Source of the DNA: Phreatobacter cathodiphilus
GTDB lineage: Bacteria; Pseudomonadota; Alphaproteobacteria; Rhizobiales; Phreatobacteraceae
Length of the DNA: 64,000 nucleotides
Reading direction: 5' to 3'
Assembly (NCBI RefSeq): GCF_003008515.1
Contig: NZ_CP027668.1
Location: 310,001 to 374,000 of the forward strand
Numbering within the stretch: position 1 is the first letter of the stretch; each line of letters starts with the position of its first letter. The notes under the pieces are model-generated. The model did no database searches. It was not told the DNA's origin and saw only the letters and a program-made list of their open reading frames with translations. Positions 24,716 to 29,550 of this stretch are shown here, one piece after another. Both the position numbers and the translations under genes were made by a program.

Positions 24716-24760
24716 AAACCGCTTGACGCCCGCCTGCGGCCGCCCTACCACGCTCGCACG

Positions 24761-24817
24761 ACGTGGAGATTTGGCCGGCCGGCTTGCGAACCACGCTAAA
24801 CAATTCGCTAAAAGGCC
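24761..24817 (+). ncRNA. SAM-II (SAM-alpha) riboswitch
   Basis: Matches the compact SAM-II fold. P1 is CGTGG (24762-24766) with CCACG (24791-24795); the loop starts AGATTT and carries GGCC (24773-24776), which pairs with GGCC (24814-24817) to form the pseudoknot; the linker has the conserved TAAACAATTCGCTAAAA. SAM-II RNAs precede met genes in Alphaproteobacteria and repress them when SAM is plentiful. The metZ start is 98 bp downstream. Confidence 0.93.
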
Positions 24818-24871
24818 GGGCGCACGGGATCAACCCGGCCTCGGCTTTTGCCAGGTCGGGTTCTGTTTTTT
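24814..24871 (+). terminator. SAM-II expression platform: antiterminator and terminator
   Basis: CCCGGCCT (24834-24841) pairs with AGGTCGGG (24853-24860), with an inner GGC/GCC and a TTTT loop, followed by TTCTGTTTTTT: an intrinsic terminator. The same CCCGGCC can instead pair with GGCCGGG (24814-24820), whose GGCC is the 3' pseudoknot strand of the riboswitch. Bound SAM should hide GGCC, free CCCGGCC and allow termination; without SAM the antiterminator can form. Confidence 0.75.
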
Positions 24872-26141: not shown

Positions 26142-26173
26142 AGGATAGCACGGCGGTACTATCGGGACTTCTG

Positions 26174-26326
26174 CCCCTCACCCTGACCCTCTCCCCGCAA
26201 GCGGGGAGAGGGGGCTACAGCCTCCCGCTTTGCCCGGCACGGTGTAGCTCGGCATGACCGCCGAGGTCGGGTCGCGACGTCGAAGTCCCCCTCTCCCCGC
26301 TTGCGGGGAGAGGGTAGGGTGAGGGG
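26174..26326. repeat. inverted pair of REP-like repeats
   Basis: Copy A (26174-26214) starts CCCCTCACCC and contains the hairpin CTCTCCCCGCAAGCGGGGAG. Copy B (26287-26326) is almost its exact reverse complement and ends GTGAGGGG. The arms enclose 72 bp with no reading frame. The arrangement is like a BIME or a small MITE. Further members are at 28911-28951 and around the DUF559 gene. Confidence 0.8.
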
Positions 26327-26401
26327 CCAGCGACGCTCTGCGAGCGAGACCCTTGCGCCATCACCCTTGCCGGCCCCGCCGCGTGGTGCAAGAAACCACC
26401 C

Positions 26402-28799: not shown

Positions 28800-29100
28800 C
28801 CTGCCGTTCTAGCCGGGCGCGGCGGGAAATCCAGCGGCTGAGAGGGCAGGGGAGCCATGGGGCGGTCGCGGGACGCGGCGGTGTGATCGGCGGCGCGGGT
28901 GTTGCCCCGGCCCCTCACACTTGCCCTCTCCCCGCAGGCGGGGAGAGGGGGACTATGACGCTGTGCCTCTCCAAAGCCGAACTGCCAGTTGGCAGGAACT
29001 GGGTCATCGGGTTTGCTCCGAATCTGGACGGCAGGCGCGAAACCCTCTCCCTTCATGGGAGAGGGTGGCCGCGTCAGCGGCCGGGTGAGGGAGGAGCCAC
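28800..29100. other. intergenic stretch holding repeat copies
   Basis: No credible gene. It contains a REP-like copy at 28911-28951, a short hairpin (CTGCCAGTTGGCAG, about 28983-28996) and the left repeat of the DUF559 unit from 29041. Confidence 0.7.
28911..28951. repeat. REP-like repeat, copy C
   Basis: CCCCTCACACTTGCCCTCTC then a CCCCGCAGGCGGGG hairpin and AGAGGGGG. Same family and orientation as copy A at 26174-26214. Confidence 0.8.
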
Positions 29101-29499
29101 ATGCCCTCCGCCTTTGCGCGGTCCTTGCGCCGAAACGCGACTGGCATCGAAAGAATTCTCTGGGATGTCCTGCGCAACCGCCGGCTGAACGGCTTGAAGT
29201 TCCGGAGACAAGTTCCGCTCGGACCCTATGTGGCCGACTTCGCCTGCTTCGACCCTAAGATCATCGTCGAAGCAGACGGCGCCCAGCACGCCGGCAGCGC
29301 CCACGACCAAGCACGGGATGCATGGTTCAGACAGCGCGGGTTTGCGGTCCTCAGGTTCTGGAACCACGAGGTGACCACCAATCCGCATGCTGTGCTCGAC
29401 AGGATCGTCCTGACTTCGACGCAACTCCCCAGACGGATCAAGGACTCACCCTCACCCGGGGCCTGACGGCGCCACCCTCTCCCATGAAGGGAGAGGGTT
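29041..29499. mobile_element. DUF559 gene bounded by terminal inverted repeats
   Basis: The left repeat (29041-29095) begins AACCCTCTCCCTTCATGGGA and runs through GAGAGGGTGG to GGGTGAGGG. The right repeat (29445-29499) is its near reverse complement over about 55 bp, with a few differences in the GCGTCAGCGG centre. The endonuclease gene starts 5 bp inside the left repeat and its stop lies within the right repeat, so the unit is just repeat, gene, repeat. Target-site duplications are not obvious by eye. Mobility is inferred, not shown. Confidence 0.55.
29101..29466 (+). CDS. DUF559 domain endonuclease-like protein
   Basis: 121-residue PD-(D/E)xK-type protein, related to very-short-patch repair nucleases. 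The core runs from LRRNATGIERILWDVLRNRR (Glu near 17) through FRRQVPLGPYVADFACFD (Asp near 46) to IIVEADGAQH (Glu 57, His 63) and VLRFWNHEV. The family is common in Alphaproteobacteria with no settled role. The gene lies inside a pair of inverted repeats and its last codons (SPGA) are encoded by the right repeat, so C-terminus and repeat have evolved together. It has no partner methylase nearby. Confidence 0.88.
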   Translation: MPSAFARSLRRNATGIERILWDVLRNRRLNGLKFRRQVPLGPYVADFACFDPKIIVEADGAQHAGSAHDQARDAWFRQRGFAVLRFWNHEVTTNPHAVLDRIVLTSTQLPRRIKDSPSPGA

Positions 29500-29550
29500 A
29501 TGTGCCCGCCTCACGCCGCGACCGCGCAATTTGCCCGGCCCGCCACCACC

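Follow-up and report, generated by a model that had tools for sequence, protein, structure and literature searches.

A DUF559 gene framed by inverted repeats

The 64,000-nucleotide stretch of the Phreatobacter cathodiphilus genome analysed here (NZ_CP027668.1, positions 310,001 to 374,000 of the forward strand; hereafter the window) carries, at a site between MATE and ada genes, a small gene for an endonuclease-like protein of the DUF559 family which is framed on both sides by copies of a palindromic repeat [Table 1]. The open reading frame (ORF) at 29101-29466 matched PF04480 in a profile search with E = 4e-39 (133.3 bits against a curated cut-off of 20.6). Inverted arms of 62 nt that are 85% complementary (29030-29091 and 29449-29510) face each other across this ORF, as described in an initial annotation made from the sequence, which was also right in placing the stop codon inside the right repeat; it occupies 29464-29466, within the second hairpin of that copy. 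The tail of the left copy ends at 29091, nine bases ahead of the start codon (ATG at 29101).

Repeats of this type, referred to as family B, consist of an outer hairpin CCCTCTCCC-loop-GGGAGAGGG, a small second hairpin and a tail GGGTGAGGG directed toward the gene. Purine-type triplexes follow the pairing rules G.G, A.A and T.A, and the tail of the left repeat, when reversed, fits the purine arm of its hairpin under these rules. Read directly, both copies in the window combine a homopyrimidine-homopurine stem with a mirror purine tail, as in an intrastrand triplex motif. Five CCCTCTCCC...GGGAGAGGG hairpins occur in the window compared to none in 100 shuffles. The complete 4.49 Mb genome holds 44 family B-type hairpins in 25 clusters, 15 of which are pairs spaced 101-104 bp apart, and no occurrence of the reversed hairpin pattern.

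The palindromes at 26174-26326 and 28911-28951, which the initial annotation had considered related to the gene-framing repeat, are indeed related to it but belong to a second family with a 26-bp hairpin core (family A), so that the window holds two repeat families. Family A adjoins another DUF559 gene of the same genome (L002). In total, the profile search returned five PF04480 matches in this genome, and the four strong ones (L001, which is the window gene, L002, L003 and C1:1052358, the latter listed both as L004 and as L074), with E-values of 5.4e-29 or better, are all accompanied by such repeats, albeit of differing stem types or families. By the flank score defined below, no repeats accompany the weak fifth match, L005 (E = 2e-14). 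L003 and L004 had appeared repeat-less by a single hairpin pattern; this was rejected upon reading other stem types in their sequence, and flank measures that assume no motif were therefore adopted. In four species of the genus (L063, L064, L066 and L074), a DUF559 gene with a GGGGAGGGG-type motif occupies what is seemingly one and the same position, and some DUF559 copies thus seem to be stable and inherited.

Table 1. Features of the window that belong to the DUF559 locus or to the two repeat families.
Feature	Position	Strand	Details
DUF559 (PF04480) endonuclease-like gene, 121 amino acids	29101..29466	+	ORF call, profile match
Left triplex-type repeat, family B	29041..29092	+	Hairpin 29043-29065, second hairpin 29067-29082, mirror tail GGGTGAGGG 29083-29091
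Right triplex-type repeat, family B, inverted	29449..29499	-	Tail CCCTCACCC 29449-29457, second hairpin ~29458-29473, hairpin 29475-29497
Left-flank segment, 44 bp, adjoining the left repeat, resembles metH start	28997..29040	+	37/44 identical to species G005
Family A single copy	28910..28951	+	Hairpin 28924-28949, tail-like CCCCTCACACTT on 5' side
Family A inverted pair, REPIN-like, ~158 bp	26173..26330	.	Hairpins 26187-26212 and 26289-26314, tails outward

REPIN, doublet of inverted repetitive extragenic palindromic (REP) sequences.

DUF559 genes are often framed by inverted repeats, across phyla

The framing of DUF559 genes was scored without assuming any motif, by matching the 400 bp upstream of each gene with the reverse complement of the 400 bp downstream (threshold, 40). 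Strong matches to the family are over-represented in what follows because the loci were drawn from the top of ranked lists, and partly chosen by hand. Among the first loci, 27 of 39 reached a score of 40 (L073, at a contig end, was left out) compared to 3 of 2340 random spans from the same regions. The main set comprised 127 DUF559 domains from 84 genomes and 38 families, six of 133 unique domains having been dropped for lack of 250 bp of flank. Inverted flanks were found at 75 of these 127 domains (65 of 103 from within the host's order and 10 of 24 from a phylum search) and at 1 of 1320 random spans, while a control in which the downstream flank was reversed but not complemented yielded 2 of 127. 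A second set took the best 80 loci from 556 relatives of six query proteins, and five of these queries derived from loci already scored. This set shares no identical domain DNA with the first, is not a random draw, and its record titles include Proteobacteria, Desulfobacterota, Chloroflexi, Nitrospirae, Melainabacteria, Spirochaetes, Planctomycetota and Elusimicrobia. Inverted flanks were present at 51 of these 80 domains and at none of 712 spans.

Homopurine hairpins within 330 bp of the DUF559 domain were found at 104 of 127 loci of the main set and 68 of 80 of the second, and on both sides of it at 64 and 46 loci, respectively. Their density was 2.48 per kb near DUF559 and 0.061 per kb beyond 1 kb in the main set, and 3.07 per kb near and 0.117 per kb beyond 600 bp in the second, with the reservation that the counts near DUF559 are not independent, several hairpins coming from one locus and some loci being related. 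Considering only strong DUF559 domains (E < 1e-20, a line of our own choosing), 117 of 122 displayed inverted flanks or a repeat hairpin within 330 bp, the five without either being L023, L059, L062, L110 and L114; none of the five weak domains had a hairpin. As a control, true Vsr genes (PF03852), whose products have a similar fold, were scored in the same 199 genomes and gave 0 of 28 on both measures, two of 30 loci having been dropped. An ORF-based test found inverted flanks at 1 of 332 other ORFs in the regions and at 7 of 28 DUF559 genes; its greedy ORF caller mis-called many DUF559 frames, and the domain-bounded test replaced it. We note the existence of motif arrays, tandem or long inverted, around DUF559 genes at L248 and L253, in a Planctomycetota metagenome-assembled genome and Legionella anisa.

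The initial annotation had allowed for the DUF559 genes of relatives being mostly devoid of repeats, and for the repeats standing equally beside random genes. The figures of 117 in 122 for strong DUF559 domains, and of 1 in 1320, 1 in 332 and 0 in 28 for random spans, other ORFs and Vsr genes, go the other way on both counts. The association of DUF559 genes with such repeats, which crosses phyla, is in our opinion almost certain.

The repeat has the layout of an intrastrand triplex motif

Perfect hairpins of at least 8 bp near DUF559 genes (n = 290 in the main set) carried the pyrimidine arm 5' and the purine arm 3' in 227 cases and the reverse in none, 63 being mixed; the second set had 162 pyrimidine-first, 2 purine-first and 29 mixed hairpins. 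As with the densities, these hairpins and the tails scored below are not independent of one another. The tail was a perfect mirror of the purine arm in 130 of the 227 (57%) and a mirror with at most one mismatch in 211, whereas reading it as a direct repeat gave a perfect fit in 76; arms taken from other loci fitted in 9.9% and shuffled flanks in 0.6%. The direct-repeat reading was outdone when asymmetric arms were considered (n = 165), the mirror fitting better in 84 and the direct repeat in 3 with the rest tied. The second set behaved in the same way, with 129 perfect mirrors and 79 perfect direct repeats among 162, and a score of 64 to 6 among 124 asymmetric arms. Stem and tail moreover vary together, GGGAGAGGG being found with GGGTGAGGG, GGGAGAAGG with GGATGAGGG, GGGGAGGGG with GGGGTGGGG and GGGGGAGGG with GGGAGGGGG, which is what an intrastrand triplex would need. 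Judged by its sequence, the repeat is a purine-type intrastrand triplex motif made of a pyrimidine-purine hairpin and a tail that mirrors the purine arm.

Repeat and gene co-occur in genomes

Co-occurrence was analysed with a hairpin pattern restricted to the AGAG stem type and with tests that treat genomes as independent, the stratified test adjusting for family only. Within the order (149 genomes), at least three hairpins were present in 48 of 58 genomes with a strong DUF559 gene and in 14 of 91 without (odds ratio (OR) 26, p = 1e-16; stratified by family, OR 17, p = 5e-6), and the median hairpin count was 15.5 with and 0 without. Outside the order (168 genomes) the corresponding figures were 31 of 37 and 9 of 131, and in the other orders of the class 15 of 17 and 0 of 23. 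Most repeat-rich genomes have the gene, and the repeats are thus not equally frequent in DUF559-free genomes, another outcome for which the initial annotation had allowed. Two motif-rich genomes devoid of DUF559, G211 with 82 hairpins and G305 with 35, also scored high with the reversed control pattern (13 and 18), and their hairpins are therefore partly simple sequence; others, such as G051, which is without a strong DUF559 gene and has 34 hairpins, are not accounted for in this way.

The mobility of classical REP sequences is attributed to REP-associated tyrosine transposases (RAYTs), and the Y1 transposase family PF01797 was followed in the same genomes. The window genome yielded no PF01797 match, and 129 of the 149 genomes of the order had none either. 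At least three hairpins were found in 12 of 20 genomes of the order with this family and 50 of 129 without (OR 2.4, p = 0.09), and outside the order in 26 of 105 with and 14 of 63 without (OR 1.15, p = 0.85); among outside-order genomes that possess PF01797, a split by DUF559 still gave 20 of 23 against 6 of 82. RAYTs were rejected as movers of the repeats, given the existence of motif-rich genomes without PF01797 and the absence of a clear link.

Filled, deleted and empty sites

The comparison of sites covered twelve species within the genus. G000 and G001 have the DUF559 gene at the window's MATE-ada site. G006 (L081) has kept both repeats and the start and end of the gene, the middle of which is gone; this gene-less derivative, a single case, appears from its sequence to illustrate how a gene-less pair can arise from a cassette by internal deletion. 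Other motif-type hairpins occupy the site in G005 and an unrelated palindrome in G002, and the other seven species have no such hairpin within 330 bp. G005 has the gene at the metH-metF site, as does G001, where its orientation is opposite; G000 has a lone half-repeat there, and the other nine species have no such hairpin.

The left flank of the G000 copy at the MATE-ada site ties these two sites together: over 44 bp ending at the repeat, 37 positions are identical to the metH start of G005, a match whose score is equalled by 3 of 2972 background windows, metH loci included. For the flank of G001, the match extends over 34 bp and scores lower. Given this resemblance, the metH-metF site is the probable origin of the ada-site copy, which would have brought some flank along, with a loss following in G006.

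The motif pair found at the pyrD site of the window recurs in G006, and G001 has another motif type there. G005 and G011 carry other palindromes at this site and G009 a tail-like remnant; no repeat is present in G002, G004, G007, G008 and G010, G003 being unalignable. Upstream of pyrD (26142-26401 in the window), the occupant of one and the same region differs among species, being either of two triplex types, the unrelated GTCATGCCCGGC palindrome or no palindrome at all, a distribution reminiscent of a hot spot. Elsewhere in the window, positions 24753-24831 encode an ordinary SAM_alpha riboswitch (RF00521).

The DUF559 protein

The window protein matches PF04480, with PF18741 below its cut-off and no other family. 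Fourteen residues, the putative catalytic ones among them, are invariant among 43 aligned sequences (R10, E17, W21, R36, Q37, D46, F47, E57, D59, G60, H63, D69, R72 and R85). An AlphaFold2 model of the protein (mean predicted local distance difference test score, 89.6) was closest in fold to 3hrl, itself a DUF559 protein by sequence, followed by I-Bth0305I and, more weakly, Vsr. I-Bth0305I (3r3p) is the nearest fold of known function, with template modelling (TM) scores of 0.62 and 0.75; the match to Vsr (1vsr) had TM scores of 0.54 and 0.50 and E = 0.13. By its predicted fold, the DUF559 protein is a nuclease of the Vsr/homing endonuclease type. Models of anti-phage defence systems from PADLOC yielded no family at E <= 0.01, and a defence system was rejected on this ground.

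Protein and motif type go together: in 67 of 102 cases a protein and its nearest relative from a different host family have the same stem type, where 35.9 were expected and none of 5000 shuffles reached as high. Several DUF559 genes with different stem types occur within single genera (g50).

The motif in Escherichia coli and its neighbor ycjD

The same motif is known from E. coli as TMECO, formerly BoxC or PIT, with 23 copies in strain MG1655 and reports from more than 260 genomes; it forms a stable triplex in vitro and its sites show higher instability (PMC4666352). Its authors state that mobility functions were never found beside the motif and name no associated gene, and earlier work that they cite found the motif to be without promoter or terminator activity (PMC4666352); the words DUF559 and endonuclease have no use in the main text of that paper. 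TMECO no. 9 lies at 1,351,204-1,351,239 in MG1655 (PMC4666352), 167 bp from ycjD (1,351,407-1,351,760), a gene which encodes a DUF559 protein and whose stop codon is spanned by an imperfect hairpin of the triplex-motif kind. An earlier listing of putative PD-(D/E)XK nucleases included YcjD (PMC1189080), and ycjD is reported to occupy the place that eefRABCD holds in other lineages (PMC12817139). The ycjD region is at least 80% covered in 3333 of 5426 E. coli genomes, and one E. coli control genome had no PF04480 match in the profile search. We take ycjD to be the sole DUF559 gene of MG1655. On its 3' side (L189:2704-2921), inspection by eye revealed an apparent truncated second ycjD 3' end between two triplex-type hairpins.

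At the alx-sstT site of E. coli, a TMECO pair has lost exactly 76 bp between two CCCTCTCCC arms, which leaves a single copy (two strains read; L315 and L318, L320), and the one strain read with low coverage at this site, CP196099, has unrelated DNA there. At ygfF-gcvP, loci H70 and H75 have bglA in place of ygfF. As to the literature, none of the matches listed in open PubMed Central ties DUF559 to these repeats, and no title of a DUF559-containing paper there links DUF559 to repeats. REPs with a CGTC tag are said to be without a dedicated transposase (PMC3733652).

A model for the spread of the repeats

Framing, co-occurrence, the covariation of stem and tail, the match of protein and motif type, the filled, deleted and empty sites and the donor-like flank at one site are all direct observations. 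We propose, with a probability of roughly 0.55, that the DUF559 gene and its surrounding repeats together constitute a single selfish nuclease-repeat system, which operates in the manner of REP-RAYT systems with an unrelated enzyme. The DUF559 protein probably drives the spread of the repeats, presumably by binding and cutting the motif. A homing-like cycle of breakage and copying fits best. The DUF559 protein would recognize motifs of the type found in its own lineage, probably at replication, when they are single-stranded and folded, and would nick or cut beside the folded motif; repair of the break would then copy motif-bearing DNA into the broken site, in the form of a motif pair or of the whole motif-gene-motif cassette, sometimes with flank. 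Internal deletion would convert a cassette into a gene-less pair and arm-to-arm deletion a pair into a single motif. That the path is one of breaking and copying rather than a transposase-like reaction is a tentative suggestion. More speculatively, DUF559 proteins may be selfish nucleases found throughout bacteria whose substrate is folded, three-stranded DNA and which disperse triplex repeats by cutting and break repair, YcjD and the BoxC/TMECO motifs of E. coli K-12 included; they would then make up a second REP-type system that arose in evolution independently of transposases of the HUH (histidine-hydrophobic residue-histidine) class.

A number of observations weigh against the proposal of a selfish nuclease-repeat system. 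Inverted flanks are missing at 52 of the 127 DUF559 domains of the main set at a score of 40; 23 of 222 genomes without a strong DUF559 gene have at least three hairpins, and 16 of 95 with one have fewer than three by a pattern that covers one stem type only. The mobility suggested in the initial annotation is partly supported by filled, internally deleted and empty sites and by the donor-like flank, but inspection by eye of the ada, metH-metF and pyrD sites, whose flanks have diverged, revealed no target-site duplication; G006 shares the donor-like flank over its last 15 bp only, and the match of the metF-side flank is weak and not above background. A clean empty site was sought in E. coli and not found, fabI-sapF holding either ycjD or efflux genes. 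The TMECO triplex was not seen in vivo by dimethyl sulfate footprinting (PMC4666352). Finally, a DUF559 protein of Caulobacter, VsrA (CCNA_02930), is described as a mismatch-repair-type endonuclease tied to the ScmA methyltransferase (PMC12907096).

The strongest alternative, although an unlikely one, is that DUF559 proteins are housekeeping, Vsr-like repair enzymes that resolve the trouble caused by triplex motifs and are for that reason kept by motif-full genomes. The nearest folds, I-Bth0305I and Vsr, would suit such a role, as would the Vsr-like VsrA, which is genotoxic without its methyltransferase (PMC12907096), and co-occurrence alone is compatible with it. A repair gene, however, need not stand between copies of the motif, and true Vsr genes were never found in this position (0/28); the occurrence of the gene at two sites, each time with framing repeats, and a motif type that tracks the protein across host families also speak against it. 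We find it more improbable still that the motifs spread by other means, be it slippage of host replication or another enzyme, with DUF559 as a homing passenger that lands at motif sites. Genomes with many motifs and no strong DUF559 gene do exist (34 hairpins in G051, 76 in G128), and the 76-bp deletion that turned an E. coli pair into a single copy took place at a gene-less site; yet motif-only genomes could be remnants left after gene loss, and neither the median of 0 hairpins without a strong DUF559 gene versus 15.5 with one, nor the 0 of 23 versus 15 of 17 genomes in the other orders of the class, is in favor of a passenger.

There is very little likelihood that the hairpins are ordinary terminators or mRNA-stabilizing structures around a horizontally acquired gene. 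They adjoin the gene, and bidirectional hairpins can terminate transcription. A purine-only arm, a pyrimidine-first polarity (227 versus 0; 162 versus 2) and a mirror tail are not needed for this purpose, however, other genes are without such repeats, and the earlier work cited in PMC4666352 found neither promoter nor terminator activity. That these are classical REPs for whose movement a RAYT (Y1/HUH) transposase is responsible, DUF559 being adjacent by chance, is scarcely credible in spite of the REPIN-like pair geometry and the weakly positive association of PF01797 in the order, since 43 of 54 genomes with at least five hairpins lack PF01797, as do the window genome and most of the order, and the OR outside the order is 1.15.

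These results provide DUF559, a nuclease family of unknown function, with a candidate substrate and an orphan repeat family with a candidate partner gene. Should DUF559 proteins recognize the folded motif, they would be a naturally occurring enzyme that acts on three-stranded DNA, and might be a reason why motif sites are unstable at the level of strains. Given that E. coli K-12 possesses both a DUF559 gene and the repeat, an old question becomes testable in a laboratory strain.

Comparison with known systems

The initial annotation missed that the repeats are intrastrand triplex motifs, already known from E. coli, and that their link to DUF559 reaches across phyla. The repeats studied here share with TMECO/BoxC/PIT the common core CCCTCTCCC..GGGAGAGGG, the GGGTGAGGG tail and the arrangement in inverted pairs (PMC4666352), and differ in that many stem variants are linked to DUF559.

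With regard to nucleases, I-Bth0305I, the nearest fold of known function, represents homing endonucleases of the EDxHD type. The EDxHD motif consists of conserved E, D, H and D residues, and E17, D46, H63 and D69, which are invariant in DUF559, may be their counterparts; DUF559, on the other hand, is a free-standing gene for some 120 amino acids placed between repeats and is not known here in an intron or intein. The Vsr mismatch endonuclease (PF03852) is alike in fold, but its genes are without repeats (0/28), while Caulobacter VsrA (CCNA_02930) is likewise a DUF559 domain protein (PMC12907096). A resemblance to insertion sequences and miniature inverted-repeat transposable elements (MITEs) lies in the gene-less derivative with the same ends, in the one case of the ada site of G006. 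The tie between DUF559 and a REP/MITE-like family that the initial annotation had suggested is supported by the framing and by the co-occurrence counts.

The analogy with REP-RAYT systems drawn there holds for the layout and not for membership. In both, palindromic repeats surround a nuclease gene and occur elsewhere in the genome as well, with inverted pairs scattered between genes. The window enzyme, however, has a Vsr/PD-(D/E)XK-type fold and not that of an HUH Y1 transposase, no match to which was found in the window genome; the repeats are triplex motifs, and neither window copy contains the GTAG tetranucleotide of the GTAG class of REP-RAYT systems. As it lacks the enzyme that defines REP-RAYT systems and its own enzyme has another fold, the system is not REP-RAYT, and it is best called a second REP-type system, composed of triplex motifs and a nuclease of the Vsr/homing type.
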